The notes under the pieces were generated by a model. The model ran no database searches, had not been told where the DNA came from, and saw only the letters and a program-made list of their open reading frames with translations. Positions 1 through 64,000 of a stretch of DNA of 64,000 bases are shown here, one piece after another. The translations under genes were made by a program, and so were the position numbers. Location of the stretch: contig NZ_CP086115.1 of NCBI RefSeq assembly GCF_016806835.2, positions 1 through 64,000 on the forward strand. Direction: 5' to 3'. Position 1 is the first letter of the stretch; the number at the start of each line of letters is the position of its first letter. Origin of the DNA: Skermanella rosea (GTDB lineage: Bacteria; Pseudomonadota; Alphaproteobacteria; Azospirillales; Azospirillaceae).

Positions 1-325
1 TCACCTGGAAGGTGCCGGCGAACTTATCGCCGCCGGCGCTGCCGTAGGCGAACTCCAGCAGCTCGTGCGTGCCCGCGATGGCCGCCGCGAGCAGGGCATT
101 GGCCGACGTGCCGTCCTCGAAGACGCCGGTGCCGGAGATGCTGACCGAGCGCACGCCTGCGCCCTGCAGCAGCTTGCGCCAGCCTGCGTCGTCCTTGGTG
201 GTGACGTCCACCTCGGTGTTGTTGATCGACAGGTTCTCGGTTCGCATGCCGCCGATGGCGGTATAGGTGACGGGCGAGCCGCCGCCGCGTTTGATGCGAA
301 GTAGGCGTCCAGTAGCTAAGGGCAT
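1..325 (-). CDS. Phage major tail tube protein, TP901-1 family (partial)
   Basis: The visible N-terminal 108 residues begin MPLATGRLLRIKRGGG and read like the TP901-1/phi13 family of major tail tube proteins: a short lead-in, a segment on a new feature in the DV(T)TKDDAGW style, and a glycine-rich strand. The start at 325 has a strong ribosome site (AAGGAG) seven bases upstream. The gene runs off the left edge of the window, so the C-terminus is not seen. Tail tube subunits polymerise around the tape measure protein, so a long-tailed (siphovirus-like) virion is expected, with the remaining tail genes to the left. Confidence 0.75.
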   Translation of the reverse strand, partial: MPLATGRLLRIKRGGGSPVTYTAIGGMRTENLSINNTEVDVTTKDDAGWRKLLQGAGVRSVSISGTGVFEDGTSANALLAAAIAGTHELLEFAYGSAGGDKFAGTFQV

Positions 326-335
326 TGAAAACTCC

Positions 336-956
336 TTAAGAAATTATGGGTTGATGAAAAAGCTCAGGCATCGGGTCGTGCGCGAAACCCTCGATGGGGT
401 TCGGCCCGGCCACGGTGATCGGAAGACCCAGCCGCGCGAGGGTCGTGAGGCGGCGCGTCGCGCGCGCCAGCAACTCGGGGCCGGGCGGGCTGGTCGGATG
501 GGCGTAGGGCGTGCCGTCCGCCCAGTGTCCCGGCGTGCCGTCGAAGCCGAGCAGCACGATGGAGCGGGCGCCGAGGGCGAACGCGAGGCCGATGGCCTGC
601 ATGCCGCTGGTGCCCTTGGTCACGCTGACCCGCTTGCGGCCGTTGGTCACGGCGAGGCGCGTCGGGCGGACATAGGTGATGCGGGGCCGCGGAGCGTCCT
701 TCAGGCCGGGGGCCGTGGAGTAAATCGGGCCGCCGTGGAAGCGGCGGAAGTCGCCGCGCGGGTCGGTCGCGTCCTTCCAGCGGTCGAGGAACAGGTCGTC
801 GCCGAAGAACATGGCGCTGGCCGAGGGCAGCTTGAGGTAGGCGAGGTTGACCGCGATGCTCTGGCGGCCTTTCAGCGCGTCCCAGTCCAGATTGACCAGC
901 GAGGCGCCGCCGCCGAGGATGTAGACCGGTTCGTCGGCTGAGAAGATCGGTTCCAT
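336..956 (-). CDS. Phage Rossmann-like protein, glycosyltransferase/DUF115-like, function unknown
   Basis: This 206-residue protein opens with VYILGGGASLVNLDWDAL and a following IAVNLAYLKLPSA segment. That resembles the nucleotide-binding opening of DUF115/MptE-like and sialyltransferase-like proteins sometimes carried among phage structural genes. A second conserved-looking stretch is GTSGMQAIGLAFALGARSIV, followed by LLGFDG. It sits between the tail tube gene and the tail terminator gene in the same orientation, so it is probably expressed late. A role in modifying a surface sugar or a virion component is only a guess; no catalytic residue can be assigned. Confidence 0.5.
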   Translation of the reverse strand: MEPIFSADEPVYILGGGASLVNLDWDALKGRQSIAVNLAYLKLPSASAMFFGDDLFLDRWKDATDPRGDFRRFHGGPIYSTAPGLKDAPRPRITYVRPTRLAVTNGRKRVSVTKGTSGMQAIGLAFALGARSIVLLGFDGTPGHWADGTPYAHPTSPPGPELLARATRRLTTLARLGLPITVAGPNPIEGFAHDPMPELFHQPIIS

Positions 957-962
957 AAACTC

Positions 963-1364
963 CTAGATGTCCTGTGTGATGGCCCGGTAGCGCTGGACGC
1001 CGTGCCAGTACGTCTCGTTGGGCTGCCGCTCCTGAAAATGCGTCTGGAACTCGCAGCGGATCATCACCAGCGTGCCGCCCGAGACGGTGATCGCGGCCTC
1101 CTGGTTATGGAGCGCGGCGTAGATGTTCTTCAGGATGCCCAGCACCTCCGCGGCGCTCTCCTTGCTGCGCGAGAAGGCATGGATCTGCATCTCCCACTCG
1201 TGCAGCTCGATATCCTTGGCGCTGGCGTCGTCCATGGCGATGTCGCCGAAGCGGACATACGGATAGGCCTGCCCCTGCGGCACGTGGCTGTAGACCGGCG
1301 TGGTGAGCTGCGCGTCGAGGCGGGCGTAAATTCCGGCCAGCAATGCTGCGGTGTCGAGTGCCAT
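963..1364 (-). CDS. Phage tail completion/terminator protein, DUF3168 family
   Basis: The 133-residue product begins MALDTAALLAGIYARLDAQL and contains the pattern VYSHVPQGQAYPYVRFGDI typical of DUF3168 (gp17-like) tail completion proteins, which cap the tail and join it to the head. The ATG at 1364 is preferred because the codons further upstream lie in the neighbouring gp10 gene and read as low-complexity arginine-rich sequence. It follows the HK97 gp10-like gene by two bases, consistent with the usual gp10/DUF3168/tail tube order. Confidence 0.8.
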   Translation of the reverse strand: MALDTAALLAGIYARLDAQLTTPVYSHVPQGQAYPYVRFGDIAMDDASAKDIELHEWEMQIHAFSRSKESAAEVLGILKNIYAALHNQEAAITVSGGTLVMIRCEFQTHFQERQPNETYWHGVQRYRAITQDI

Positions 1365-1366
1365 GG

Positions 1367-1810
1367 CTACTTCTTCGACGCCTTGCGCTGTGCCTTGGCG
1401 ACGCCCTGCTTCAGGCGTTTCTCGATGTTGCCGCGCTCTTCCTTCAGCGCGGGACGGAAGAACGGACGCTCCTCCATCTTCGAGGTGCCGAATTCCAGCA
1501 GGGCGGCGTACTCGACGGCGCCGGAACCGGCCTTGACGAGCACGCGCTTCCTGGACGGCTGCGCCTCCACCTTGATCGAGTTGACCAGGCGGCCGGTGTC
1601 GTTGGCCGGTGCCTCGCCGGGAGCCGACGCGCGGTGCGTGACGCTGCGGCGCTTGTAGGTCCGGCCGGATTTGCCGCCGGCCATGATCTTCTGCTTGGCG
1701 TTGCCCTCGATCATGAGGCCGCCGGCGTAGAGCGCGGCCTGAACTTCCTTCTCGATCTCGCCCATCAACCGCTTGCGGATCGTGACCCATTGCTGCAGGA
1801 GGCTAGGCAT
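1367..1810 (-). CDS. HK97 gp10 family neck/tail-joining protein
   Basis: This 147-residue basic protein has the HK97 gp10 hallmarks: an N-terminal helix, GRLVNSIKVE near the middle, and VEYAALLEFGTSKMEERPFFRPAL near the C-terminus. Family members help attach the tail to the head. It overlaps the head-closure gene by eight bases, showing translational coupling inside the head-tail joining cluster. The C-terminus is very rich in lysine. Confidence 0.85.
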   Translation of the reverse strand: MPSLLQQWVTIRKRLMGEIEKEVQAALYAGGLMIEGNAKQKIMAGGKSGRTYKRRSVTHRASAPGEAPANDTGRLVNSIKVEAQPSRKRVLVKAGSGAVEYAALLEFGTSKMEERPFFRPALKEERGNIEKRLKQGVAKAQRKASKK

Positions 1811-2162
1811 CGAGCGTGCCCTCCACGCAGAGCAGCTCGAGCACGATGTTCTCTTCGGCGACGTTGATGCACTGGACGATATCGAAGACGCGCGTGCCGA
1901 ACAGGATCCGGTTCCTGGTGGTCACGTCGTTTCGGTGGCGCATCCTGATCTTGTGGCTGACCGGCGTTTCGGTCTGCATCGAGCGCCATACCTCGAGGCC
2001 GCGATAGGGCATGATCGACGCCCACGCCTTGCCGACCTCGGACCATGCGAGCGTGCCGCCGCCGATGCCGTCGGGGGTACGCATCTTCGCCTGGATCGTG
2101 ATGCGGTGGCGCAGCTCTCCCGCGTCGATGCAGAGCGCCTTGTTCTTCGAGCGGCAGCTCAT
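1803..2162 (-). CDS. Phage head closure (head-tail joining) protein, SPP1 gp16-like
   Basis: The 119-residue product carries the usual pattern of the head-tail joining family: GELRHRITIQ at the start of the domain, GIGGGTLAWSEVGKAWASI, and a later RMRHRNDVTTRNRILFGTRVFDI stretch. SPP1 gp16-type proteins close the connector channel after packaging. Its ATG overlaps the stop codon of the connector gene (ATGA). It lies in the expected position between connector and gp10 genes. Confidence 0.8.
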   Translation of the reverse strand: MSCRSKNKALCIDAGELRHRITIQAKMRTPDGIGGGTLAWSEVGKAWASIMPYRGLEVWRSMQTETPVSHKIRMRHRNDVTTRNRILFGTRVFDIVQCINVAEENIVLELLCVEGTLDA

Positions 2163-2785
2163 AGCGAGCGCACGCGGTAAGGTTCGAGCAGCTTCAGCGC
2201 GGCCTCGGGCAGCTCGCCACAGTTGCGCGCCTCGTAGAAGGACGACAGCGCCTGCTTGATGGCCAGGCGGATCGCGGCGGGCACGTTGGAGCCGGAGGCG
2301 CCGTACCCGGCCGTGTGGACGATCTGGACCGCGTCCCGCTCGCGCAGGATGGGCAGCAGGGTGCCCTCGCGCAGGATGACGCGGCCGCCCGAGGCATCGA
2401 CGAGGTAGTCGTCGGGGCTCAGGACGGTGGCGATGTTGTAAGCATCGTAAGTCGTGACGCTGGTGACGGCGATCAGCGGCGGGTAGGACAGCACGATCGG
2501 CGCATAGTCGCCGGTCAGCAGGGCGATCGGCCCCTCACGCACCCCGTCCCACCATTGATTGCGCCTCTCTTCCTGCGAGGGCCATCTGTCCAGGGTCTGG
2601 CGCAGGGTCCGGGCGATGAAGGCGCGGCGCGTGTGCTGCTCGGCCATCTCGCGGCACGCCACGATCATCTCCTGGATCATCAGGTCCTCGTCGTCGCCGT
2701 CGAGGCGCAGGAACAGCTTGGCTTCTTCAAGCGTGACCGGCTCAACGGCGGGCGGGGTGACGACGATGGTGGAATGCAGGGCCAT
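2159..2785 (-). CDS. Phage head-tail connector protein, HK97 gp6-like
   Basis: This 208-residue protein starts with TPPAVEPVTLEEAKLFLRLD, the diagnostic opening of gp6-like connector proteins. It continues with a helix rich in acidic residues and ends with FYEARNCGELPEAALKLLEPYRV, also typical. Connectors form the ring below the portal. The gene is the first of a tightly overlapping joining module (2785 down to 963). The confident family match rests on both ends of the protein. Confidence 0.87.
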   Translation of the reverse strand: MALHSTIVVTPPAVEPVTLEEAKLFLRLDGDDEDLMIQEMIVACREMAEQHTRRAFIARTLRQTLDRWPSQEERRNQWWDGVREGPIALLTGDYAPIVLSYPPLIAVTSVTTYDAYNIATVLSPDDYLVDASGGRVILREGTLLPILRERDAVQIVHTAGYGASGSNVPAAIRLAIKQALSSFYEARNCGELPEAALKLLEPYRVRSL

Positions 2786-11960: not shown

Positions 11961-12887
11961 TTAGCCGCCGCCGGCTCGGACCGGAACGAACTCATACTCG
12001 CCGCCGCCGAGATCATGCGGGACGTACTCACGGGCTGCGCCGAGGACGCCGACCGGCAGCGCCGCGCGGGCCAGCGGGTTGTGCACCACGACGATGTCGA
12101 GCCCGCCGTTGAATTCATCGCTCCTCACCGATCCCATGACCGCGCTCACCCCCGCGTAGGACGGGTCGAGGAAGCTGTCGGTCGGCACCGGGCTGCCGTT
12201 GCGGCTCGGGACACTGGCGCGGTACGAGTGCCGGGCTTCCTCGGTGACGATGCGGTCGCCGCGGACCGGCACCTGGATCGGCCCGATCGGCAGCACCGCC
12301 TGCAGGATGATCGGAAGCGTGCTCGCCGCCTCCCACATGCCAAAGGCCGACAAGCGGCTTCCGTTCACGGCGATCACGTAGCATTCGTCGTCGGCCACGA
12401 TGCCCTGCTGCCGGTAGCCGGGGACGAGCTCCGCCACCCCGGTTCTGCGGTTGCGCCCGTTGCGCCCCTCGAGCTTCTCCCGCTTCTCCTTGATGGCGGC
12501 GGTCCAGCGCAGGAGCATGGCCTCGGCCGGAACAGTGACAACCCTGAACTCGCCAGCGGACGGGACCCGCAGGCACTCGGCAGGGATTCCGACGGGCTCG
12601 GGGCAGATCGCCTCGCACCACACCACTTTGCCGCCCGCCTCGAAGCGGAAATCTGGGCCGTGGTCAGCCGAAGTCAGGCGGCGGCCCTGGGCGCACAGGT
12701 GCCGCGCCAGCAGCATCTCCCAGACGCGCTGCCAGAACCTGCCGTCGTCGCCACTGGCGATCGCATCGACGAAGGTCGTGTCGGCCAAACCGGCCGCGTC
12801 GTACTCCCGCCACAGTGTCCCATAGTATTCCTGCGCGACCGTGTTGCCCGGGAACCGGCCGCAGATGTGCGCTGAGACCCTGTCCAT
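11961..12887 (-). CDS. PD-(D/E)XK nuclease-like protein next to DarT
   Basis: This 308-residue protein has a helical N-terminus with FWQRVWEMLLARHLCAQG, then SADHGPDFRFEAGGKVVWCEAICPEP. The aspartate in GPDF and the glutamate in WCEA fall where PD-(D/E)XK nucleases place metal-binding residues, but the third lysine is not evident, so activity is uncertain. The remainder (ECYVIAVNGSRLSAFGMW, LPIILQAVLPIGPIQVP) resembles a widespread uncharacterised family. It probably shares a transcript with the downstream DarT-like gene. Start chosen at the first ATG after an AT-rich promoter region. Confidence 0.5.
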   Translation of the reverse strand: MDRVSAHICGRFPGNTVAQEYYGTLWREYDAAGLADTTFVDAIASGDDGRFWQRVWEMLLARHLCAQGRRLTSADHGPDFRFEAGGKVVWCEAICPEPVGIPAECLRVPSAGEFRVVTVPAEAMLLRWTAAIKEKREKLEGRNGRNRRTGVAELVPGYRQQGIVADDECYVIAVNGSRLSAFGMWEAASTLPIILQAVLPIGPIQVPVRGDRIVTEEARHSYRASVPSRNGSPVPTDSFLDPSYAGVSAVMGSVRSDEFNGGLDIVVVHNPLARAALPVGVLGAAREYVPHDLGGGEYEFVPVRAGGG

Positions 12888-12912
12888 TTATCAACCCCGA
12901 CACGAAGTTCAT

Positions 12913-12932
12913 GCCCAATATAGACTATGGGC
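12913..12932. promoter_or_regulatory. Palindrome upstream of nuclease-like/DarT pair
   Basis: Arms GCCCA and TGGGC flank a TATA-rich centre with a further ATA/TAT match, 25-45 bases upstream of the start at 12887. The minus strand reads TATATT inside the palindrome, so an operator overlapping a promoter is likely. Confidence 0.4.
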
Positions 12933-12961
12933 AGATCGTTGATGAACGGTGTCCTGATCGG

Positions 12962-13147
12962 CTAGCCCACTGCCTCGCGGCATGGTTTTTCCGGCTGCAG
13001 GTCGGCCGACGGCGACCAGCCGTGCGGGAACAGCGCCGCGAGGTCGGGGCGGAATTCACGGGCGCGCTGCTCGCCGTGCATCAGCTTCAGCAGCCACCAG
13101 TCATGCTCGTGATGCGGCCCCGGTGCCTGGTCGGGTGTTCTGGTCAT
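12962..13147 (-). CDS. Small phage protein of unknown function
   Basis: A 61-residue protein with GPHHEHDWWLLKLMHGEQRAR in the middle. GAGGAAAG precedes the ATG. It is the last gene of the small-gene cluster before the DarT cassette. No family recognised. Confidence 0.5.
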   Translation of the reverse strand: MTRTPDQAPGPHHEHDWWLLKLMHGEQRAREFRPDLAALFPHGWSPSADLQPEKPCREAVG

Positions 13148-13183
13148 GGTTCTTACTTTCCTCTCTTAGCGATAGCATCTGTC

Positions 13184-13426
13184 TCACACGTCCTTCCGGT
13201 CGATGATCCGGACGCGCACCGTCAGGGGCCAGGCGACCAGCACGGAAAGCACGAGGTCGAACCACTGCGGGAGCCATGCGGGACGGAATATCTCGTCCTC
13301 GGGCTTGGCCGGGCGCACGATTTCCCGGATACGCCGGGATGGCATCATCGCCAGCAGGATCAGGAACGAGAAGCCGGTGGCAAAGTACAGCCACACCAGC
13401 GCGCCGATCACATCGAAAGTCGTCAT
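13184..13426 (-). CDS. Two-span membrane protein of phage small-gene cluster
   Basis: The 80-residue product has two hydrophobic segments (VIGALVWLYFATGFSFLILLAMM at residues 5-27 and WFDLVLSVLVAWPLTVRV near the C-terminus) linked by a charged loop. GGAGGAAC precedes the ATG and the start overlaps the previous stop (ATGA). Holin-like size and topology are noted, but no lysin lies nearby, so function is open. Confidence 0.55.
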   Translation of the reverse strand: MTTFDVIGALVWLYFATGFSFLILLAMMPSRRIREIVRPAKPEDEIFRPAWLPQWFDLVLSVLVAWPLTVRVRIIDRKDV

Positions 13427-13569
13427 ATTGTTCCTCCCGCACCGATCTTGTTTCCTGATGCGTCGTACTGAACGATGTGCATCAAGAGGTGCCTGATGCG
13501 CTCCTCGGCCTCGGCGACCGTGCCGTCCTCCGCCGGGATGACGTCGAACCTTCGGGCCACCGGATTCAT
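13423..13569 (-). CDS. Small phage protein, 48 residues
   Basis: The frame MNPVARRFDVIPAEDGTVAE... is joined to both neighbours by ATGA overlaps (13566-13569 and 13423-13426), which strongly supports translation. It is acidic and helical, without a recognised domain. Confidence 0.55.
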   Translation of the reverse strand: MNPVARRFDVIPAEDGTVAEAEERIRHLLMHIVQYDASGNKIGAGGTI

Positions 13570-13790
13570 ACGGCAGCCTGCCCCAGCGCTGAGGCCGCGA
13601 CACGGCGCACCCGCTCGTCTTCGTGCTTCATGAGCTCGGCGGCGATCGCCGCGATTTCCGGGCTGGTTTCCCGCCCAAGCCGGGCCTGCTCCACCATCTC
13701 GATGATGCGCTCCGCCTTACGCATCCCGTTGCCGTAGCTGTACTCGATCAGGTCAGCGATCTCGGTCGTCAGTTTGGTTCTCGCATCCAT
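13566..13790 (-). CDS. Small helical phage protein
   Basis: A 74-residue, charged, all-helical protein (MDARTKLTTEIADLIEYSYG onward), with ERVRRVAASALGQAAV at the C-terminus. A ribosome site (AGAGGAT) precedes the ATG. It heads a three-gene set coupled by overlapping start and stop codons. Function unknown. Confidence 0.55.
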   Translation of the reverse strand: MDARTKLTTEIADLIEYSYGNGMRKAERIIEMVEQARLGRETSPEIAAIAAELMKHEDERVRRVAASALGQAAV

Positions 13791-13815
13791 AAATCCTCTC
13801 TGGTTGGTAGGTTTG

Positions 13816-14073
13816 TCATTCAGGCAGCGGCACGCGCCTGCCGATTTCCCATGCCCGGACGGCGGCGAGCGCCCCCGAATGGATCAGTTCGTCGAGCAGG
13901 TCCTTCTCCGCGAAGCTGGCGACCTCGGCGTTGGTAACCGGCACCAGCACCCATTCCAGCCGGTCGGGGTCCGCAGTGACGTAAAGCCCGTCTGCGCACA
14001 TCTCGGCATCACAGAAGCCCTGCACGGCGAGAAGCTGGGAAACCCGGAAGCGGAAGTCGTCGAGCACGGTCAC
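13816..14073 (-). CDS. Small phage protein of unknown function
   Basis: A GTG start that overlaps the upstream stop codon (GTGA) gives 85 residues beginning with TVLDDFRFRVSQLLAVQGFC. The middle reads GLYVTADPDRLEWVLVPVTN. No family recognised; position in the early/middle operon suggests a host-interaction role. Confidence 0.5.
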   Translation of the reverse strand: MTVLDDFRFRVSQLLAVQGFCDAEMCADGLYVTADPDRLEWVLVPVTNAEVASFAEKDLLDELIHSGALAAVRAWEIGRRVPLPE

Positions 14074-14663
14074 GCCTCGCCCCCGGTGCTGTAGGTCAGC
14101 ATCTTCCACTGCTCGACCTGCTTCTGGGCTTCGCGTAGCGCTTCGGAACCGCCGCGCACCTTGGCCAGCTCGCGGCGCTCGAACTCGCGGACATACTCCA
14201 CCTCCCATGGCGGCACGAAGACGCGGCCTTCGACCATCTTCTTGCGGATGCTGACGTACATCGCCGCCGAGAGCGGCGGCTCGGGAGGATCAATGATGGC
14301 GATGATGTCGGAAGGCGCCGGGATATCGCTGTTGCCCGGCACGGCAACGTACTGGCGGAGCGCATCGAGGATGACATCCATCGCATAGCCCTGCAGCACC
14401 CAGCAGAAGCCCTCGACCAGAACCTCCAGCTCGGCGCCGGTCTTGCCGTACTGCTTCTGGAGCGCACAGACGTGCCCCATCGCTATCGCCAGCCGGGCCT
14501 TATCCTCCGGGCTGAATCCCTTCCTCTGCGCGGTATTTTGCGGCGAGACGCTCGGCCTCGGTGAGCCATTTGGACTTTCCGGGCGGAGCGTGACCAGCGC
14601 CTGATCGGCTGGCTTCGCCATTTCCACGATCCCGTGAACGGTACTCTTGAGCTGGGTTTCCAT
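14070..14663 (-). CDS. Phage protein overlapping the DUF1376 replication gene
   Basis: The 197-residue frame has a perfect ribosome site (AGGAGG, six bases before the ATG) inside the 3' end of the DUF1376 gene, so the two genes share 164 bases in different frames. The shared part encodes a low-complexity N-terminus. The rest is helical (DKARLAIAMGHVCALQKQYG, LEVLVEGFCWVLQGYAMDVI) and then SDIPAPSDIIAIIDPP. The position after a replication initiator suggests a helicase loader or replication accessory protein, but no ATPase motif is present. Confidence 0.6.
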   Translation of the reverse strand: METQLKSTVHGIVEMAKPADQALVTLRPESPNGSPRPSVSPQNTAQRKGFSPEDKARLAIAMGHVCALQKQYGKTGAELEVLVEGFCWVLQGYAMDVILDALRQYVAVPGNSDIPAPSDIIAIIDPPEPPLSAAMYVSIRKKMVEGRVFVPPWEVEYVREFERRELAKVRGGSEALREAQKQVEQWKMLTYSTGGEA

Positions 14664-15378
14664 GGGCTTCCTCCTGTCGTAGGGGTTTGGTGCGTTTGCT
14701 GATGCTGGCGGTGATGTCCTGGTCGAACATCGAAAGCGATCGCCGCGGCGGGTCGCGGCCGTCGGCGATGTGGCGCTTGATCACCGGCACGATGTCGGCC
14801 TCGAAGTCGGCGCCCGCATTGAGCCAGGCGATGACCGGGGCGGAGATGTAGAGGTAGCGGTTGCCGAACTGGTCGCTGATCCAGTCCACAATCCGGGTGG
14901 CTCTTGCGATGCGCTCTTCGGGTGTTTCGGCCTCAGGCTCACCCGCACGCGTTTCGGCGGCGGCCATATACGAAGAAGATTTATCTTCTGAGGAGAGATT
15001 GTGGTTGTGGTTGTGGTTAGTAGAGCCCGGCTTAGGCTTTGCTTTAGCATTGCTAGCCTTTCGCTTGCCGCCCTTTTTTCCAGCTTTTACACGGGCTTCG
15101 TGCTTTTGCTCCGCTTCCGTGATGATCTCTTCGGCCTTCTGATTACGCCAAACACCGTCAATCAGGGTGAAGAAGGAAGTGAGCACAAAGTCCACATCGC
15201 TACGTTCTTGCTCTAGCGATGCCCTAGCAATGCTAAAGCGGTGTTCATCAGGGATTGGCTTGCCGGTTGTATAGATATACCGGAGCAGCAGAATGAAAGC
15301 TCCATGCTGCGCCTGGGTGAGGTGCAGCGTCTTGGCGCTGTAGTCGCCCCAGTAGAAAGGATACCAAGGCTGGGTCAT
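14500..15378 (-). CDS. DUF1376 phage replication protein
   Basis: The 292-residue product opens with WYPFYWGDYSAKTLHLTQAQ followed by HGAFILLLRYIYTTGKPIPD, the DUF1376 signature of phage replication organiser-like proteins. It then has a lysine-rich linker with a histidine/asparagine run (TNHNHNHN) and a C-terminal helical domain (IARATRIVDWISDQFGNRYL). The ATG at 15378 overlaps the upstream stop codon and has GGAGGG before it. DUF1376 proteins usually bind replication origins. The C-terminal 55 residues overlap the next gene. Confidence 0.75.
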   Translation of the reverse strand: MTQPWYPFYWGDYSAKTLHLTQAQHGAFILLLRYIYTTGKPIPDEHRFSIARASLEQERSDVDFVLTSFFTLIDGVWRNQKAEEIITEAEQKHEARVKAGKKGGKRKASNAKAKPKPGSTNHNHNHNLSSEDKSSSYMAAAETRAGEPEAETPEERIARATRIVDWISDQFGNRYLYISAPVIAWLNAGADFEADIVPVIKRHIADGRDPPRRSLSMFDQDITASISKRTKPLRQEEAHGNPAQEYRSRDRGNGEASRSGAGHAPPGKSKWLTEAERLAAKYRAEEGIQPGG

Positions 15379-15899
15379 TTCGCCGCCCTCCATTCTTCGG
15401 GCGTACGAGCCCCCTTGCTAGTGTTGCAGGGGCGGCAGGATGTCGTGAGGTTCGACAGGTCATTCGTACCCCCTCTGGTGAGCGGGACGATGTGATCGCA
15501 GTGCAGAGGAAGCTCCTCGCTGCTGCAGTATGTGCAGGCGTAGTCATCGCGCTCAAAGACGATCTCGCGTAGTGCCCGCCAGTCAGTCGGATACAGCGAG
15601 ACTTTCGCCGGTGGTCGCCGCAGTCGGTTGCGTTCGTCCAGCAGCCGACCTTGCACCCATTTTTGCTCGTCATTGAGCCGCCAGAAGGCAAGCAAGGTTT
15701 CCTTGTTGGCGTTCCACGTGCGCTTATCCAGCCCAGTAATCCGGGCCAGAAACGCGTCGTTATCAGGCAGCGCACAATCGGGCGACCGCCATGCTGTCAT
15801 GATCATGAGCAGATAGGCCCCGTGCTGGAGCGTGGTCAGGTGCCTGGTGTCGGCCAGATAAGCGTCGGTGAACAGCGGGAGTGCTGAAAACTCGGCCAT
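15375..15899 (-). CDS. DUF1376-HNH endonuclease fusion protein
   Basis: This 174-residue protein joins a short DUF1376-like N-terminus (LPLFTDAYLADTRHLTTLQH, then GAYLLMIMTAWR) to a complete HNH nuclease. The nuclease has a CTYC knuckle, a DHIVPLTRGGTND core and a CRPCNTSKG second knuckle. The gene lies directly upstream of, and overlaps, a longer DUF1376 gene. The fusion suggests a DUF1376 paralogue that gained, or was invaded by, an HNH domain. It may nick DNA at the replication origin or help packaging, where HNH proteins often assist terminase. Confidence 0.75.
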   Translation of the reverse strand: MAEFSALPLFTDAYLADTRHLTTLQHGAYLLMIMTAWRSPDCALPDNDAFLARITGLDKRTWNANKETLLAFWRLNDEQKWVQGRLLDERNRLRRPPAKVSLYPTDWRALREIVFERDDYACTYCSSEELPLHCDHIVPLTRGGTNDLSNLTTSCRPCNTSKGARTPEEWRAAK

Positions 15900-15901
15900 G
15901 G

Positions 15902-16951
15902 TCAGCCCCGGACCAGTCCGGCCGCTTCGATGATGCGGGTCACCGGCACGATCTTCTCGTCAAGCCAGTAGACCGGCTCTCCCTTGACATGTGAGATCAT
16001 GGCGCGTGTTCCGAGCTTCTCAATCGCCTTGTCAATGCCGGGATTCCCGCTTCCCGATGTTGAACGTGATGCCTTGACCGGCTCCCCCGCTTTGCCGATC
16101 AGCTCACCGCCGCGCCTTTCCGCCTTGGGCTCCGAGACGGTGATGGCTTTGCCGATCAACTCTTCGCTGCCGGCGGAGCCGGAGTCGATGGCCTGCCCGA
16201 TCAGCTCGTCGTCAGGAATGGGCTCGGGAACCGCCTCTTTCTGCTGCGGCGGGAGTTGCGCCGGTACTTCGGCGGGCGGCACGCGGCCTTCCTTTCGCAG
16301 CACCGAAAGGTAGGTGTAGACGCTGTTCTTAGGAACGCTGCTGTGGTCGTGGATCTCCTTCGCCGTGCGGCATCCCGCCTCCCAGGCGAGGAACACACGT
16401 TCCTTGCTGCTCGGCTCCGGAGCGTCCTCGATTACCGGCTGCACATCCGCCTGCATCTCGGGCTGCTCTACAAATGCCAAATCCGATGCATTTTGCGGGC
16501 TGGAAGGCTCGTCGTCCTGGCCGTCGATCTCGTCCCGAGGCTGCGGCTCACTGGCCTCCTCGCTGTTGGCTGCACTGATCCAGCCGCTGTCGTGGATCGC
16601 TTCCGTGGCCTGCGCATCGCTGAACAGCCGAACGCGCACGTCGGGGAGCGTCTGGCCGTCGCCTTCGGTCAGCAAGACGGGGACGGCGACATAATCCTGC
16701 CCGGTAGGGCTATCGGTCATGAATTCTTCGAAGAGCTGTCTAGGAGCTGCCGCGGCTTCGCAGGTCCGCTTCAGGGCGTCGGCCTCGATCAGGGCAAGCG
16801 CATATCCCATACCGGCGATCTCGCCATTGATGGTATGGATGCATTCCAGCTCGTGATGGGCGAAAGTAGTCCTATCTGACTTGATGAGGCCGAGGCAGTG
16901 CTCGAAGGCCTCGATACGAGTTCTTAGGGAAGTGGAAACATGATCATGCAT
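15902..16951 (-). CDS. Phage DNA-binding-type protein with winged helix and ELIGKA repeats
   Basis: The 349-residue product has a helical N-terminus, a long acidic linker, then FLAWEAGCRTAKEIHDHSSV followed by PKNSVYTYLSVLRKEGRV, which reads as a winged helix-turn-helix. After it, the motif ELIG(Q/K)A occurs three times in about 45 residues (DDELIGQA, EELIGKA, GELIGKA). The C-terminal IEKLGTRAMISHVKGEPVYW segment is folded-looking. It precedes the two DUF1376 genes and may regulate or take part in replication initiation. Family unknown. Confidence 0.5.
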   Translation of the reverse strand: MHDHVSTSLRTRIEAFEHCLGLIKSDRTTFAHHELECIHTINGEIAGMGYALALIEADALKRTCEAAAAPRQLFEEFMTDSPTGQDYVAVPVLLTEGDGQTLPDVRVRLFSDAQATEAIHDSGWISAANSEEASEPQPRDEIDGQDDEPSSPQNASDLAFVEQPEMQADVQPVIEDAPEPSSKERVFLAWEAGCRTAKEIHDHSSVPKNSVYTYLSVLRKEGRVPPAEVPAQLPPQQKEAVPEPIPDDELIGQAIDSGSAGSEELIGKAITVSEPKAERRGGELIGKAGEPVKASRSTSGSGNPGIDKAIEKLGTRAMISHVKGEPVYWLDEKIVPVTRIIEAAGLVRG

Positions 16952-17125
16952 AAAGCCCCGCTGTCAGGTCGCTGAAAATTAGTGACGGCAGAAAGCTCAG
17001 CGTTGCCTTCTTTTCCCTCGCCGCGCGCTCTGGCCAGAACACGGGTCCGGTAGCCGCCACTCTATTTACACAATACTTACGCAATTTCATTGAGCAAGCA
17101 TTCTCTGCTTATGGGCAAACGGCCA

Positions 17126-17350
17126 CTATTCCTGCAATGCCAGAACTTCGGGTGCAGGCACCGGAATGGTGGGCCGCGCATCCTTCAGCCACGCCAGCGC
17201 CGCGTCGAACGGATCCGGCACGGCCTGGCTGGGGAAGACCGGGTTAAAGGCGTAGCCCTTCGGCGTGGCCTTGCCGTAGGTCACGCGCTTTCCCTGAACC
17301 TTGGCCGCGCGCAGGCTCGGGTTATGGATGATGGTGAAATCGTCTTGCAT
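17126..17350 (-). CDS. Small phage protein of unknown function
   Basis: A 74-residue basic protein (MQDDFTIIHNPSLRAAKVQG onward) with a good ribosome site (GGGAGAGAA). It lies between gapR and a 174-base gene-free stretch that probably holds a promoter for the next operon. No family recognised. Confidence 0.5.
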   Translation of the reverse strand: MQDDFTIIHNPSLRAAKVQGKRVTYGKATPKGYAFNPVFPSQAVPDPFDAALAWLKDARPTIPVPAPEVLALQE

Positions 17351-17376
17351 GGCGTTCTCTCCCTGATCGTGAGCCG

Positions 17377-17643
17377 TTACGCGGCTTCTTCTTCCGCCGG
17401 GATCATCCCCAGCGCGGCCAGGTACAGATCGAGCATGTGCTCGCGCTCATCGCGCTCCGCCGCCTCCAGCTTGCGCAGCTTCAGCACCTCTCGCATCGCC
17501 TTGTTGTCGAAACCGTTGCCCTTGGCCTCGGCGAACACGTCACGGATATCCGCGCCGAGACCGGCCTTCTCTTCCTCGAGGCGCTCGATGCGCTCGATGT
17601 AGCTGCGAAGCTGATCCGCTGCAATATTCCCGACTTGTACCAT
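17377..17643 (-). CDS. gapR: GapR family DNA-binding protein (DUF2312)
   Basis: The 88-residue product contains the GapR signature AADQLRSYIERIERLEEEKA, then DIRDVFAEAKGNGFDNKAMREVLKLRK. In alphaproteobacteria GapR binds AT-rich, over-twisted DNA ahead of replication and transcription forks and stimulates topoisomerases. The ATG at 17643 follows AAGGAGAG. It is full length. Sitting among phage replication genes, it could support replication of the phage genome or alter host chromosome behaviour. Confidence 0.85.
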   Translation of the reverse strand: MVQVGNIAADQLRSYIERIERLEEEKAGLGADIRDVFAEAKGNGFDNKAMREVLKLRKLEAAERDEREHMLDLYLAALGMIPAEEEAA

Positions 17644-17689
17644 AATACTCTCCTTGAAAATGTGGAGGCCGAAGCCCCCGGTTGAAAAT

Positions 17690-18034
17690 TCAGACGATCT
17701 CGACCTTAATTCCATGTTGTGCCTCCACGAGACGCCGCTTGAGGTTCGACATGTGATCGTTCTTGCGCATGTACTCACTCTTGGAATCCTCGACGACCTG
17801 ACAGCCCCGCACGTTGCTCTAGTACCGGAAATCGAGCTTCACGTTACAGATCCAGCGGCCGTTAATCTCGATGCGGTAGGTCGGCTGAAGCTCGAGGTCG
17901 CTGATCTCGCCAAGGCGCAACAGCACACTCAGCTCCCGATACCGGACGCCCTCGCGGGCGCTGTGGAAGGTGTGGCCATCAATGACGATCGCCTTGTTCC
18001 CGAACTTCGGCCTGCCCCTGACGCCGAACTTCAC
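17690..18034 (-). pseudogene. DUF1064 nuclease-like gene interrupted by an in-frame amber codon
   Basis: A GTG start coupled to the upstream stop (GTGA) opens KFGVRGRPKFGNKAIVIDG, followed by HTFHSAREGVRYRELSVLLR and LELQPTYRIEINGRWICN, matching the DUF1064 phage endonuclease-like family. The frame stops at TAG (17819-17821) after DFRY, only 71 residues in. The same frame continues for another 42 codons with the family's expected C-terminus (RGCQVVEDSKSEYMRKNDHM, then SNLKRRLVEAQHGIKVEIV). The break is therefore a single stop codon, from mutation, read error or read-through. Without read-through the protein loses its catalytic lysine region. Confidence 0.65.
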
Positions 18035-18552
18035 AAGGACCGTGGCCTGTTGGAACGGTTTGCCGTGCGCTCCCGGGCGAGCCGCTCCTGGTGACTGCCT
18101 TCGATGACCGGCGGCCCTGCCCTGTCGCCCGCCTGATAGACCTCGTTCGGGTCCGGCACATAGTAGCCGAACTCCGAGGCCCACTGCTGGATCTGCGCCA
18201 TCTTGTCGGAGAACTCCGACTTGCTGAGGCTGGTCGTGCTGCCGCCGATCACCGAGGGCGTGCCGTCGGGGCTCAGCACGACCTTGTGCAGCTTCATGAC
18301 GTGCATCTTGAGGAATTCATGCACCTGGTCATGGCTCAGCGTCGTCCCGGCGTCCTCGAACATCCGCTGGATGTGCGGCACCACGACGCCGTGGTAGTAG
18401 GCGTTCTGCGACAGGCTGCGGGCGTGCTTCACGACATCGACCGTGACGCGGACCTTCTCGCCCTCGTGGCTTCGGATGAAATCCTGGACGGCCGGGCTTC
18501 CGGCCATCGCGCCGTTCTTCACCAGACCGCTGACTGTGAGGGATTTCGACAT
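18031..18552 (-). CDS. NinB/Orf-like recombination protein (tentative)
   Basis: The 173-residue product has RSLSQNAYYHGVVVPHIQRM followed later by STTSLSKSEFSDKMAQIQQW and ASEFGYYVPDPNE. This layout is shared with phage proteins often annotated as NinB/Orf-like recombination mediators. Such proteins bind single-stranded DNA and load annealing proteins. The context fits: ERF-like protein, Gp157 and SSB lie just upstream in the same operon. Family assignment is tentative. Confidence 0.5.
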   Translation of the reverse strand: MSKSLTVSGLVKNGAMAGSPAVQDFIRSHEGEKVRVTVDVVKHARSLSQNAYYHGVVVPHIQRMFEDAGTTLSHDQVHEFLKMHVMKLHKVVLSPDGTPSVIGGSTTSLSKSEFSDKMAQIQQWASEFGYYVPDPNEVYQAGDRAGPPVIEGSHQERLARERTANRSNRPRSL

Positions 18553-18555
18553 GGC

Positions 18556-19110: not shown

Positions 19111-19133
19111 ATAAATCCTTCTGCTATTTGCGG

Positions 19134-20413: not shown

Positions 20414-20727
20414 GCCAGCACCTCCGCCGGAAGCTCCGACCGGCTGGCGATCATGTTCTGGATGGCGCTGTCACGGACGGCGCACTCGTGGCGACGCACC
20501 TCGCAGTCCTTGCGGACATCGTCGAAGGCCTTCTCCAGCCCGCCAACGACCTCATCGAACGTCGCGGCGTCGATTTTCTCGCCGTGGGACTTCACGTGCT
20601 GCCTGATCTGGCCGATCACGTTGAACGCGATGCCCTCCAGAACCTTCAATGTCATGAAAGCGTGATGGGCCTCGGCGGCGTCGCGGGCTTCGTTTGAACA
20701 GGCAAAAGAACTTGGAGTAAATGACAT
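20410..20727 (-). CDS. First gene of the phage early operon, unknown function
   Basis: A 105-residue helical protein (AEAHHAFMTLKVLEGIAFNV, IDAATFDEVVGGLEKAFDDV) with two cysteines in the C-terminal part (DCEVRRHECAVR). It begins the leftward early operon just after an AT-rich control region. It may be an accessory of the downstream annealing protein, but no family was recognised. Confidence 0.55.
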   Translation of the reverse strand: MSFTPSSFACSNEARDAAEAHHAFMTLKVLEGIAFNVIGQIRQHVKSHGEKIDAATFDEVVGGLEKAFDDVRKDCEVRRHECAVRDSAIQNMIASRSELPAEVLA

Positions 20728-20768
20728 AACTACTAACCAATGAAAGAAGCTTTACAAGTAATAATCTT

Positions 20769-20789: not shown

Positions 20790-20819
20790 TATAACAATTT
20801 CGTCAAGTAAAATGTTTTT

Positions 20820-42959: not shown

Positions 42960-43047
42960 AATAATAATAGCCCATGACACCTAACGAATATTTACAGACG
43001 CAAGGAGGCTTGTAAGATGAAGTTCAGTAAACGCAACTACTCGTTTT

Positions 43048-43566: not shown

Positions 43567-43580
43567 GAGGGGACTATTCC

Positions 43581-44615: not shown

Positions 44616-46363
44616 GTCGCGCTGCGTTGCTGCTGGTGCCGCCCATCCTGCTCGCCTTCTGGAGCGTGGTGGCCTCCTTCGTCACGCTCTGGGGCCTTGG
44701 CACACTGGAAGCGGTGGGCTGGCCCAGCTGGCACTGGTGGGGCTATCTCAGCGCCACCATGCCGGATGCTCATACACAGAGATTGGTGAACCAGTGGCTG
44801 CTGATCGGGGCAGGGGTCGGCAGCGCGGCCGCCGGCATGCTGGGCTACCGCATCGTCAGCGACGGCCGGTCGCTGCTCGGCTTCGCGGATCGCCCCCTGC
44901 ATGGCCGCTCGAAGTTCGCCACGCGGCGGGAAGGGCAGGGGGCCGGGCTCGTCTATTCCCGCGCGCCGCGGCCCGATGCTCTCCTGCTGGGCCGGACCAA
45001 GGGGCTGTTCGGCTGGTTTGCCCGCTATGTCTGCCTGCCCGGCGTCGAGCACGTCATGCTGTTCGCCAAGACAGGCGCGGGCAAGGGCGTCGCCTATGTC
45101 ATCACCAACTGCTTCAACTATGCCGACAGCCTGGTCGTGCTCGACATCAAGGGGGAGAACCACCGGACCACGGCGGCCCACCGGCGCAAGCGGCTGAAGC
45201 AGGAGGTCTACCTGTTCGCGCCGCTCGCCGAGGATGGGCGGACCCACTGCTGGAACCCACTGGGCGACATCAGCACGGCCCAGCCCGATTACATTTCCAA
45301 GCTCCAGCGCCGGGCCTTCAACATCTTCCCCGAGGTCGAGGGCAAGGACCGCTTCTGGCAGGACGGCGCGCGCTCGGCCTTTCTCGGCATCTCGGTGCTG
45401 GTCGCGGAATCGCCCGAACTGGCGCTCAACCCGGCGACGGTGTTCCGCTTCTTCACCCGGGGCGACGGTGCGGCCGAGCTGGCGCGGCGCATCGAGGCGC
45501 GGCGGGCGGCGGGCAGCCCGCACAGCCAGACCTGCGTGGATCTGATCAGCGATTACCTGAACGGCACCGACGAGGTGGTCAAAGGCATCCGCAAGCACGT
45601 CACCGCGACGATGGGGCTATGGTTCAACCCGAAGATCGCCGCCGCCACGGCGAAAAGCGACTTCTCCCTGCGCGAGCTGCGGCGCCGGAAGATGACGGTC
45701 TATGTCGGGGTGATGCCGTCCGACCTGGAGCAGCTCGGCGTGCTGCTGCGCCTGTTCTTCCTGCAGCTGTTCGAGGCCAATACCGACGTCATGCCGGATC
45801 AAGACCGCACGATCCGGCACCGCTGCCACGTCCTGCTGGACGAATTCACCAGCGTTCCCGTCATGCGCGCCATCGCCAAGGCGACCGGCTTCGCGCGCGG
45901 CTTCTGGATGCATTTCAGCTTCGTCGTGCAGAGCAAGAACCAGGTGCGCGAGGAGTACAAGGGGCAGGGCGAGGCCTCGCTGCTGGAGAATGTCGGCGCG
46001 GAGATCGTGTTCGGCACCGACGATCCGACGCTGTGCCGGGAGGCCTCGGAGCGGGCAGGGTACGACACGGTGGACAACGTCAGCCGCACCACGCCGCGCT
46101 TCTTCTCATTCTTCCGGGCCAAGGAGCAGAACGAGAGCACCAGCCAGACCCGCCGGGCGCTGCTGCTGCCGCAGGAGGTCGCCCGCCTACCGGTAGACGA
46201 GGAGATCGTGTTCCGCGCCACGGTGCCGCCGTTCCTGCTGAAGCGGCTGCGCTGGTACGAGGACCGCCACTTCAAGCGGCTGATCGGTCGGCCTCCGGAG
46301 CTGCCGCGCGTGACCTACCAGCTGGCGCGCGATGACGGTTTAATTCGGTTGCCGGGATCGTAA
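44612..46363 (+). CDS. virD4: VirD4/TraG coupling protein
   Basis: The 583-residue product has two N-terminal membrane helices (LLLVPPILLAFWSVVASFVT, NQWLLIGAGVGSAAAGMLGY), Walker A VMLFAKTGAGKGVAYVITNC, YADSLVVLDIKGENHRTTAA, Walker B CHVLLDEFTSVPVMRAIAKA and VVQSKNQVREEYKG. It brings the relaxase-DNA complex to the channel. It is coupled to virB11 by ATGA. Confidence 0.93.
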   Translation: MSRAALLLVPPILLAFWSVVASFVTLWGLGTLEAVGWPSWHWWGYLSATMPDAHTQRLVNQWLLIGAGVGSAAAGMLGYRIVSDGRSLLGFADRPLHGRSKFATRREGQGAGLVYSRAPRPDALLLGRTKGLFGWFARYVCLPGVEHVMLFAKTGAGKGVAYVITNCFNYADSLVVLDIKGENHRTTAAHRRKRLKQEVYLFAPLAEDGRTHCWNPLGDISTAQPDYISKLQRRAFNIFPEVEGKDRFWQDGARSAFLGISVLVAESPELALNPATVFRFFTRGDGAAELARRIEARRAAGSPHSQTCVDLISDYLNGTDEVVKGIRKHVTATMGLWFNPKIAAATAKSDFSLRELRRRKMTVYVGVMPSDLEQLGVLLRLFFLQLFEANTDVMPDQDRTIRHRCHVLLDEFTSVPVMRAIAKATGFARGFWMHFSFVVQSKNQVREEYKGQGEASLLENVGAEIVFGTDDPTLCREASERAGYDTVDNVSRTTPRFFSFFRAKEQNESTSQTRRALLLPQEVARLPVDEEIVFRATVPPFLLKRLRWYEDRHFKRLIGRPPELPRVTYQLARDDGLIRLPGS

Positions 46364-54357: not shown

Positions 54358-55332
54358 TTATCGCCCTCTAGCCACCGGCTCGCGCTCGCGGCGCTGACGT
54401 TCCCGCTCGGCAAAGCCCGACTTCGCCTCGACCTGCTGCGGCGCTATGACGGGTTGGAGGCCATGAAGGTAATCCGCAGCCTTCTGGGCGTGGCTCGACG
54501 CGGTGAAAATCGCGTGCTTGTCGCCCTTCAGCACTTTCAGCCAGCTATCGAGGTAGGCGGCGTGATCCTCGCGCGGCTCGATGGCAAGGCCGAGGTCGGC
54601 GGCAAGGAAGGCGCTGCCAATTTCGGCCACCAGTTCTTCAGCCGCATAGCCTTCGTCGCCCCAGCGCTTGCGCCCGAAATCCCGGTTGAGGCGGGACGGG
54701 TGGCGGGTCCAGTGCGTTGTTTCGTGGCCCAGCGTGGCGTAATAGCTCTCCGGGTCGCGGAACGTCATGAAGGGCGGCATCTGGATACGGTCGGCCTGAA
54801 TGGCGTAAAAGGCCTGATTGCCGCCGTGGTCGATCTGTGCGCCGGTGTTGCGGAAGAAGGTTTCCGCTGCCTCGATGCGGTCTATCGCGTCAAGCTTCGG
54901 TGCCTCGGCAAGGGCATAGAAACGATCCGGTAGGCCGTCGATCTGCTCGACATTGAAGACGTTGTACTGCTTCAGAAAAGGTATCTTTCTTTCTTTTTCT
55001 TCACCTTTCTCGTTTTCCTCGGTGCGCTTGATCTGGTCGGCATAGGCAACGATGCTTGATTTCTCGCCCTTGCGAACCTGCCCGCCCAGGTCGGCGGCCT
55101 GCCGGTACGTCATCCAGATTGGGGCGCTGTAACCTTTCTCATCAGCGGAGGCCCACAGCATCAGGACGTTGATTCCCCGGTACGGGGTGCCGTCATGGCG
55201 CAGCGGGCGGGTGATGCGTCCGGCTGCATGCTCGGCGTTCCATGGCTTCATCCATGGGCGCGAACCCTGCTCAAGCTGGGCGATGATGGAAGCGGTAATG
55301 GTGTCATAAATATCTTTGCGGGTTGAGGTCAT
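54358..55332 (-). CDS. ardC: Antirestriction protein ArdC
   Basis: The 324-residue product has the N-terminal DUF1738/ArdC ssDNA-binding domain (DIYDTITASIIAQLEQGSRP, WMKPWNAEHAAGRITRPLRH, GTPYRGINVLMLWASADEKG) and the C-terminal metallopeptidase-like domain with HETTHWTRHPSRLNRDFG and EELVAEIGSAFLAADLG. The HExxH zinc motif (HETTH) and second-sphere glutamate are present. ArdC-type proteins protect incoming plasmid single strands from host restriction. A plasmid-motif-like CTTTCTTTCTTTTT occurs inside the gene (54985-54998). Confidence 0.9.
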   Translation of the reverse strand: MTSTRKDIYDTITASIIAQLEQGSRPWMKPWNAEHAAGRITRPLRHDGTPYRGINVLMLWASADEKGYSAPIWMTYRQAADLGGQVRKGEKSSIVAYADQIKRTEENEKGEEKERKIPFLKQYNVFNVEQIDGLPDRFYALAEAPKLDAIDRIEAAETFFRNTGAQIDHGGNQAFYAIQADRIQMPPFMTFRDPESYYATLGHETTHWTRHPSRLNRDFGRKRWGDEGYAAEELVAEIGSAFLAADLGLAIEPREDHAAYLDSWLKVLKGDKHAIFTASSHAQKAADYLHGLQPVIAPQQVEAKSGFAERERQRREREPVARGR

Positions 55333-61806: not shown

Positions 61807-61997
61807 CCTTCCCTTTCCATGCTCAGTTCATAAACCTTCCTGATGCTGGACGGTGTGGGTATGTGGTCAAAGCGAGCATTTCCCCGCTTGTCCAAGCGAG
61901 AAGCGGGGGAAGCGGACGCGTTCCGCGCAGCGGATTGTCCACATATCCATGCCGCTAACTACTTTTTATTTTTCTAGCTTTCTTTCTTTAGGGCGAT

Positions 61998-62019
61998 GGG
62001 GCGAGCCGAAGCCCGCCCC
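61998..62019 (-). terminator. UUCG-type hairpin, copy 2
   Basis: Same 22 bases as at 60308-60329, nine bases after the parB-like stop. A plasmid motif copy (AGCTTTCTTTCTTTAG) follows at 61977-61992. Confidence 0.55.
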
Positions 62020-62027
62020 ACACCCGC

Positions 62028-63938
62028 TCAAGCCGCTTCGTCCTGCTCGATCTCGTCCTCATCCCACCCGGTCGGCTCGGCATCGGCCAAGGGTTCCGCC
62101 GTTGCCGCATCGGGCAGGCGCAGGGGCTTCGGCAGCCACCGCTTGCCGCTGAGTTCCTTCTCTGCGGCTTTGACCAGTTCGCGCTTCTTCTTCGCGGAGT
62201 GGATGCCTTTGGCGCTGGACGACACCGCCTCACCGAGTGCGCCAAGGATTTGGTCCTTGGAGATGCGGTCGAGGAACTCGGCATCGGCTTCCCAATAGTC
62301 GGCCATGTCGAGGCCAAGGGCTGCGTGAACCTGATGGCTGTTCGGGATGGCCGGGTTGCCCCGCTCCTGCACCACGTTGATCGAGGTGGCGACGAGGAAG
62401 GCCAGCAAGTCGAGCTTCGTGATCGTAGCGGCGCTCCGTACCCATTCCCACAGATCGTCGGGCTTGCCGGGGATGGTGTCGGCCCAGCGGTCGCGGATGT
62501 CGTTCCACTCCTGACCGGCCTTGCTGTCGGTCAGCTTATTCTGGCCGGGGAAGTGGCTGGTCAGGTGGATTTTCGCCGCTGCCTTTTCTGCCGTGCCTTC
62601 GCAGAATTCGCGCATCGCCAGCGTCCAGACCAGCGTGTCCAGCGCCACGGCGGGGTCGTTCGCCATTGTGACGCGCATCGCCATCGTGCGGTGGGCGGTC
62701 AAATCTTCCAGCAGGGAGGCGGAGAACTCCGGTTTCTCCTTCTTGGCCGGGGTCGGCAGTTCCAGCGAGGCACTGGCTGTGCTTCCGGTGCTGACCGCCT
62801 TCGCATCGTCACGAGCGACCAGACCGCGAGTGATCGTGATGCCATCGTGATGATCGAGTGCGATAACGGCCCCGGCGCGGCCCTTGTCAAACGCCGACCA
62901 GTCGGCACGATCAAGCTCTTGCAGGTTCTCGATAGCGTCCTCGGCTTCCTCGATCCGGCATTGCAACTCGTGCAAACCTTCATCGTCCTCGGACATTTCA
63001 TCGTACTGGCCCTGTAGCTGCTCAAGCTCGGCAGTCAGGCGATCAAGCTCGGCCTGTTCCTCGGCGGTGTAGGGACGCTCCGGTGCGTTCAGTTCCTTGA
63101 GACCATGCTGGTACGGCCAGAAACTCTCGTTGTGTGTTTTAACCCATCCCCACCCTTCGGCACGGACTTCCTCGGCAAGCTGCGCCAGCCGCTCGTTGAA
63201 CAGCCGATCTACCAGTGAGGTGTCGTCCAGATAGCTGCGGTCAGCTTCGGAAAACAGGTCGCGGGTGACGGTGCCGCCAGCGGCAAGATAGGCGTCCAGC
63301 CCGATCAGCTTGACACGGCGGTCACTCGCGGACAGCTTCGTGTGCGTCAGGCGCTGCCGGATTTCGTCAGCCCTGCGCTGCCAGCCTTCCGGCACGTCGA
63401 ACCATGCCGCTTCCTGCTTTGTATGGTCGTCGGTCAGGGTAAAGGCCATCAACTGATCGATCTTCATGCCGTCCCGGCGGAATACTTCCATCAGCTTCGG
63501 ACTGACCCGCGCCAGTTTCAGGCGCTGCTCGACCAGCTTCTCCGTCACGCCGAAACGTGCCGCAATGTCGGCGGGCGACATGCCGCCATCGGCCAGCATC
63601 TTGAAGGCATCGAACTGGTCGGCGGGGTGCATCGCCACACGGACCACGTTCTCGGTAAGGCTCAGTTCGGCGGCTTCCTCGGCGCTGCGGATCAGGCAAG
63701 GCACCGGGAAATCCTTGGCGATCTTCTTCTCCTTGGCGAGCTTCTGGAGAGCGGTCAGGCGGCGGCCACCGGCCACGACCTCGTACTTGCCCTTCGCACC
63801 CTCGACCACGGTCAGGTTCTGGAGCAGTCCGTTCGCCTCGATGGACGCGGCCAAGTCGTCGATGGACTGCCCTCCGATCTTGCGAACATTGCGCGGCGAG
63901 TGGATCAGCTTGCTGAGAGGGATGGTAGAGATCGTCAT
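62028..63938 (-). CDS. Large ParB/RepB/Spo0J-like protein
   Basis: The 636-residue product has the ParB N-terminal domain (PLSKLIHSPRNVRKIGGQSI, DDLAASIEANGLLQNLTVVE), VVAGGRRLTALQKLAKEKKI with the GGRR CTP-binding box, LTENVVRVAMHPADQFDAFK, and a helix-turn-helix (MSPADIAARFGVTEKLVEQR). A long acidic C-terminal extension follows, and it lies far (36 kb) from parA. Proteins of this type are common beside ardC on plasmids of alpha- and betaproteobacteria. It may organise plasmid DNA or regulate transfer rather than partition. AAAGGAACG precedes the ATG. Confidence 0.85.
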   Translation of the reverse strand: MTISTIPLSKLIHSPRNVRKIGGQSIDDLAASIEANGLLQNLTVVEGAKGKYEVVAGGRRLTALQKLAKEKKIAKDFPVPCLIRSAEEAAELSLTENVVRVAMHPADQFDAFKMLADGGMSPADIAARFGVTEKLVEQRLKLARVSPKLMEVFRRDGMKIDQLMAFTLTDDHTKQEAAWFDVPEGWQRRADEIRQRLTHTKLSASDRRVKLIGLDAYLAAGGTVTRDLFSEADRSYLDDTSLVDRLFNERLAQLAEEVRAEGWGWVKTHNESFWPYQHGLKELNAPERPYTAEEQAELDRLTAELEQLQGQYDEMSEDDEGLHELQCRIEEAEDAIENLQELDRADWSAFDKGRAGAVIALDHHDGITITRGLVARDDAKAVSTGSTASASLELPTPAKKEKPEFSASLLEDLTAHRTMAMRVTMANDPAVALDTLVWTLAMREFCEGTAEKAAAKIHLTSHFPGQNKLTDSKAGQEWNDIRDRWADTIPGKPDDLWEWVRSAATITKLDLLAFLVATSINVVQERGNPAIPNSHQVHAALGLDMADYWEADAEFLDRISKDQILGALGEAVSSSAKGIHSAKKKRELVKAAEKELSGKRWLPKPLRLPDAATAEPLADAEPTGWDEDEIEQDEAA

Positions 63939-64000
63939 GGATCGTTCCTTTTGAAAAGTTAATTTTGATAGGCGAGTACCCCGTGTTTTTTCTCGGAAGT

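Follow-up and report, generated by a model that had tools for sequence, protein, structure and literature searches.

The 64,000-nucleotide stretch analysed here (the window) comprises bases 1-64000 of C5, a 100,864-bp contig (NZ_CP086115.1) in the 7.76-Mb, seven-contig genome of Skermanella rosea; the remaining 36,864 bases of C5, which lie beyond the window, were analysed too. We propose, with a probability of roughly 0.55, that C5 is a fusion of a near-complete gene set from a temperate siphophage (~38.8 kb, without integrase) with a conjugative plasmid of the Skermanella lineage (~62 kb), and that conjugation is its main horizontal route. A preliminary description of the window had read phage, replication/partition and conjugation genes as continuous on one replicon. 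This picture stands, on a bigger scale than first thought, and the sphingomonad affiliation offered with it gives way to Skermanella (Azospirillaceae).

C5 contains neither undetermined bases (N) nor a terminal repeat, and the open reading frame (ORF) g144 crosses the contig end, so that a closed circular replicon is the best reading of C5. In the loci L019 and L071, homologues of g144 come right after the tail-terminator homologue; in L025 the neck homologue precedes it instead. The circle divides into a phage block of ~38.8 kb, running from 22.6 kb leftward via the contig origin to 84.7 kb, and a plasmid part of ~62 kb. Genes along the whole block share one strand, bar one TnpB gene and some low-scoring calls. 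Within C5, the codon use of the phage late genes is equally near to that of the plasmid core and that of the phage early genes.

The phage block is, by gene content, a near-complete siphophage set with packaging, head, tail and lysis genes. In the head module placed earlier at 1-9.7 kb, the large terminase subunit (TerL), portal, protease, capsid and joining genes are recognized by PHROGs, but the small subunit (TerS) finds only a PHROG of unknown function. The missing tail and lysis genes, which the preliminary description recommended looking for, are found together with a tailspike gene at 84.7-100.9 kb of C5, beyond the window; the spanin match among them is weak (E 0.002). An early operon had been suggested at 14-20.7 kb, and matches to an exonuclease and to Gam-like, SSB, NinB/Orf, HNH and primosomal proteins, accompanied by small genes, agree with it. 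At 14500-15899 two primosomal-type genes stand side by side, with an HNH nuclease domain behind the N-terminal part of one of them.

The plasmid part provides C5 with its own means of replication: besides the closed contig itself there are iterons, RepA and ParA. The iteron origin, repA and parA assigned to 25.3-27.8 kb are supported by the iteron array, by relatives of RepA in 19 plasmid records and by a ParA match. RepA has no match in Pfam or NCBIfam, and a fragment of it is also present on the Skermanella mucosa plasmid NZ_CP086107 (668,738 bp). Equally well founded was the claim of virB1-B11, virD4 and a MobF relaxase at 34.5-52.9 kb. VirB1, B4, B5, B6, B8, B9, B10, B11 and VirD4 exceed the Pfam cut-offs; VirB2 stays under its own (24.6 vs 27.9 bits), VirB3 is assigned by similarity to a region annotated VirB3, and VirB7 is a 51-residue protein assigned by eye from its lipobox. 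The relaxase has the catalytic residues, a Tyr-Tyr pair at 37-38 (by eye) and the histidine motif DPNLHTH, aligned to TrwC. Judged from these genes C5 likely moves by conjugation, and plasmid maintenance and conjugation are its best-supported functions.

Several further observations concern the transfer genes. An ORF at 43048-43566, between virB10 and virB11, resembles by eye a homing endonuclease of the HNH/AP2 type. MobF contains an intein at about residues 1185-1493 with a LAGLIDADG stretch, which interrupts the primase part within its CHC2 zinc finger; it begins with CLAGETG and ends with ILTGN, followed by CFGC, and the phage primase in the loci L010 and L011 is uninterrupted at this position. 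Beyond the window C5 bears a second mobilisation module, consisting of a MobA/MobL relaxase and a TraG/TraD-like ATPase. Weaker matches to the VirB4 family occur on four other contigs of the genome (C2, C3, C6 and C7), and additional transfer systems may be present in the strain.

A relative of the plasmid half without the phage exists in the same genus. In the sister species G003 (Skermanella sp.), RepA is 90% identical at the amino-acid level, a 176-bp stretch matches the iteron DNA at 25378-25553 with 76% identity, homologues of VirB4 to VirD4 on the contigs C228 and C229 are 48-69% identical in amino acids, and the resolvase is 75% identical over residues 4-122. This genome contains neither TerL nor an HK97-type portal (PF04860), and a DNA search found no match in it to window positions 1-20000 (40 of 270 candidates scored). 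The same search returned matches of 60-129 bases to 17506-17634 in three other members of the genus. Since G003 has RepA, iterons and VirB4-VirD4 but no TerL or portal, the plasmid half is separable from the C5 phage. The preliminary description had named related plasmids that lack exactly the phage block as a sign of simple prophage insertion; a relative without TerL and portal does exist, but its gene order has become too different for an exact empty site to be recognized.

Signs of integration were sought on the whole replicon. None of the genome's 17 matches to the tyrosine integrase family PF00589 lies on C5. The longest exact repeat between the borders at 20.6-26.9 and 79-86.5 kb measures 16 bp, which is within chance, as 27 of 171 control pairs attain that length, and shorter or imperfect attachment (att) sites remain compatible with this test of exact repeats. 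The earlier statement that integrase, resolvase and att sites are absent holds for the tyrosine integrase and for flanking repeats above chance, but not for the resolvase, as a serine resolvase is encoded beyond the window; the att sites and integrase envisaged just left of the window did not appear either. Two candidates were discarded. The recombinase at C5:69422-70108 is a 228-residue resolvase rather than an integrase, and the downstream gene it overlaps has no recombinase match; an att site at the tRNA-Trp gene was rejected, C5 having no second (partial) copy of the tRNA end.

Size raises the chief doubt about the phage route. Among the 40 capsid relatives listed of 379, all records are at most 77.4 kb long, 34 of them at most 45.3 kb (three of these, at 10.9-18.2 kb, are probably partial) and six 62.3-77.4 kb, compared with 100.9 kb for C5. 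The phage block of ~38.8 kb is near the size of most listed records (mostly ~40 kb). Of solved structures, the one nearest to the C5 capsid is that of the Rhodobacter capsulatus gene transfer agent, from which nothing follows about size in this case. We infer that the whole 100.9-kb circle would usually not fit into particles, and its packaging is doubtful. Packaging of phage-plasmid cointegrates has been described as likely impaired by size (PMC12977533).

Taken together, C5 would be kept as a plasmid by iteron/RepA replication, ParA partition and the resolvase, and would probably move horizontally by conjugation through VirB/VirD4 and the MobF relaxase. Because the phage genes keep a single order, running leftward from the early to the lysis genes, induction would be expected to yield particles and to lyse the cell; for lysis the set looks complete enough. 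With a circle presumably too big for these particles, conjugation would be the chief means of horizontal spread, and virions carrying the entire element are a possibility.

A number of points weigh against the proposed fusion. The G003 contigs C228 and C229 are without a homologue of MobF or VirB1-B3 (C228 starts within virB4), which makes the plasmid relation partial, and no relative bearing the same combination of phage and plasmid was found. In the gaps beside MobF (46364-47390 and 52840-53440) there is no inverted repeat (exact, >=7 bp, loop 3-12) of the kind sought for an origin of transfer. TerS and holin are unconfirmed, and no repressor was confidently identified on C5. As for capacity, the portal search gave 1616 records, and one of the 40 relatives listed from it is 103,248 bp long; Azospirillum phage Cd has 62 kb, and how large the genomes of distant capsid relatives are (<=46% identity) is a poor guide. 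Finally, the sequence displays the gene content, the circle, the gene order, the lack of a tyrosine integrase and the phage-free plasmid relative, but not the activity of any module; this activity, the temperate life style and the capsid limit are inferred.

In a sample of 385 alphaproteobacterial genomes, 16 carry a TrwC relaxase (E 1e-15 or lower). An HK97-type portal occurs in three of the 17 genomes formed by these carriers and G003, and in two it shares a contig with the relaxase: the distance is about 44 kb on C5 and about 459 kb on a contig of 2,685,587 bp (G251 C1), where the portal match is partial. This survey covers one relaxase family and one portal family. Three of 50,697 phage records match VirB4, all of them unannotated faecal contigs of 13.7-23.5 kb. 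Searches of IMG/VR gave no relative by VirB4, RepA or tape measure protein, and one by the capsid (53%). A near-DNA plasmid search with 50 kb of the window gave two short matches. The nearest TerL relatives, in L010 and L011, seemed at first to carry a relaxase as well, an idea that was dropped since the match is limited to the primase part.

The best placed of the alternatives, although in our judgement an improbable one, is a true dual-mode phage-plasmid, in which virions package all 100.9 kb of the element and infect, and the element also conjugates; this is compatible with a fusion origin. In its favour, the head, tail, tailspike and lysis genes form one strand-coherent block beside the rep region, C5 has no integrase, and codon use is alike in both halves. 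It is opposed by the listed capsid relatives, with their smaller records, and by VirB4 (PF03135), which is found in none of the 26 virus records among the 66 loci with a TerL relative, many of these records being fragments. A short motif also bears on the question. The 14-base GAAAGAAAGNTAGC has four copies in the entire genome, all on C5 (26810, 27774, 30335 and 85615), three in the plasmid core and one in the lysis region, within the spanin coding sequence. At first sight this favours common control of both halves. However, the phage copy encodes a membrane segment, where a chance occurrence is easier, and the motif was therefore downgraded as strong proof. The most novel form of the idea, in which C5 employs two complete and mutually independent transfer machines, is packaged whole in a large capsid of its own, infects and also conjugates through VirB/VirD4, and regulation by the plasmid core extends to the phage lysis genes, is a shade less credible still. 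Transmission of C5 both in virions and by conjugation is possible.

Of the shorter GAAAGAAAG there are 11 copies on C5, whereas 50 simulated sequences had 0.46 on average and never more than 3; it is absent from C228 and C229 of G003, from 50 kb of the Rhodovastum plasmid, from 60 kb of G090 and from phage Cd. The motif may be an operator or a partition site.

Ordinary prophage insertion, in which a Cd-like prophage entered a conjugative plasmid, lost its integrase and is now defective or trapped, also strikes us as unlikely. The phage-free plasmid relative in G003 suits it, as do the integrase of phage Cd and a 236-kb conjugative Klebsiella plasmid that bears a block of phage genes; among the plasmid records with a TerL relative, three of 81 are typed conjugative, one of them being among four whose typing was viewed. 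On C5, however, there is no tyrosine integrase and no att-like repeat above chance, the exact empty site was not found, and no structural gene among those scanned is split. A chimeric assembly that joined two replicons of one cell is very hard to credit: the genome has a single TerL, a single RepA and one strong match to VirB4, as if two replicons had been joined, but a false circle requires two joins, exact repeats common to the border zones do not exceed 16 bp, and C5 combines an ORF across the contig end with the absence of N and of an end repeat.

Apart from phage, replication and transfer genes, C5 encodes restriction-modification, antirestriction and transposon-associated functions, which are listed with other features in Table 1. 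A small XRE-like ORF near the restriction-modification pair, close to the partition genes, is by eye maybe its controller. The two TnpB genes have diverged, with 69% DNA identity over 348 aligned columns.

Table 1. Features of C5; positions above 64,000 lie beyond the window.
Feature	Position	Strand	Basis or remark
g144, 3' part, tail-region gene	1..325, continuing over the contig end to 100770..100864	-	ORF open across end
Tail terminator	963-1364	-	PHROGs
Neck / tail completion	1367-1810	-	PHROGs
g004, unnamed, joining region	within 963..2785	-	Position and homologues only
Head-tail adaptor	2159-2785	-	PHROGs
HK97-type major capsid protein	3790-5136	-	PHROGs
Head maturation protease	5129-5776	-	PHROGs
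Head morphogenesis protein	5810-6589	-	PHROGs
Portal	6555-7865	-	PHROGs; PF04860
TerL	7887-9314	-	PHROGs, E 1e-112
Proposed TerS, unconfirmed	9301-9681	-	Sole match a PHROG of unknown function
Phage early region	11961..22612	-	Leads leftward into late genes
TnpB (IS605 OrfB)	22803-23954	+	Separates phage early genes from rep region
Iteron array, 21-bp units, 3.8 copies	25476-25554	+	
RepA-like replication initiator	25710-26705	+	Position by iterons; relatives
ParA	26837-27481	+	
Small partner protein of ParA	within 26837..27765	+	Ribbon-helix-helix-like by eye
tRNA-Trp	30805-30877		ARAGORN
BsuBI/PstI-type restriction endonuclease and Eco57I-type methylase	31246..33911	-	
Type IV secretion: VirB1 (SLT), VirB2, VirB3, VirB4, VirB5, g066, VirB6, VirB7, VirB8, VirB9, VirB10, VirB11, VirD4	34471..46363	+	
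MobF relaxase-helicase-primase, 1820 aa	47388-52850	-	
ArdC antirestriction protein	54358..55332	-	
ParB-family protein, 636 aa	62028..63938	-	
Small serine resolvase, 228 aa	69422-70108		
MobA/MobL relaxase (MobQ-type)	75595-76557		Under NCBIfam MobQ cut-off
Second coupling-like ATPase, TraG/TraD-like	81305-82837		
Phage lysozyme	84718-85224		
Rz-like spanin	85431-85694		Weak match (E 0.002)
Virion protein	87093-87842		PHROGs
Tailspike	88218-90893		PHROGs
Second TnpB	91031-92167		Inside tail region
Tail-fibre assembly family	92236-92604		PHROGs; best family without known function
Tape measure	96952-100194		PHROGs

The interest of C5 hinges on self-packaging. If an element retains a phage set together with all genes for conjugation, it would represent a living intermediate or else a stable element with two routes, and C5 allows the cost of two transfer routes, and switching between them, to be tested in one strain. 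In published accounts phage-plasmids move in capsids, and gain of mob or oriT has been described after the loss of phage genes in plasmids derived from them (PMC10879196); the formation of phage-plasmids through gene acquisition has, according to a review, not yet been observed (PMC11652158).

C5 resembles the phage-plasmids P1, N15 and SSU5 in being an extrachromosomal replicon with rep/par functions and a phage gene set, and differs from them in adding a full type IV secretion system (T4SS), a coupling protein and a MobF relaxase. The phage side resembles the 62,337-bp Azospirillum phage Cd (NC_010355), which matches 11 of the 144 called C5 proteins, including capsid, protease, portal, exonuclease and endolysin; one of the 11 (g106) lies in the plasmid half and matches perhaps by chance. 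In contrast to C5, Cd has an integrase (gp72), and its annotation names no T4SS gene. The plasmid side is mirrored in the Rhodovastum plasmid NZ_OW485607, where the VirB order is the same and MobF follows on the opposite strand as it does in C5; the annotation of the entire record mentions no structural gene of a phage, and PLSDB types it as non-mobilizable despite its T4SS and MobF genes. The same VirB order is shared with the plasmid contigs of G003.

Streptococcus pyogenes Phi1207.3 is a prophage with reported conjugation-like transfer (PMC4260502); unlike C5 it is integrated, and that paper's text mentions neither "relaxase" nor "type IV". Among the papers that searches of the open-licence literature listed, none has a title on conjugative phage-plasmids with a complete T4SS. 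The Klebsiella plasmid pB19293_1 (NZ_CP142972, 236 kb), typed conjugative (MOBH, MPF_F), bears terminase, head, baseplate and lysis genes in its first 48 kb and is far bigger than C5, with a different T4SS and phage. In the review mentioned above (PMC11652158), conjugation is counted among the plasmid-like functions of phage-plasmids. With this listing, the Klebsiella case and the conjugative plasmid records that have a TerL relative, the pairing of phage and conjugation in C5 is not a new category.

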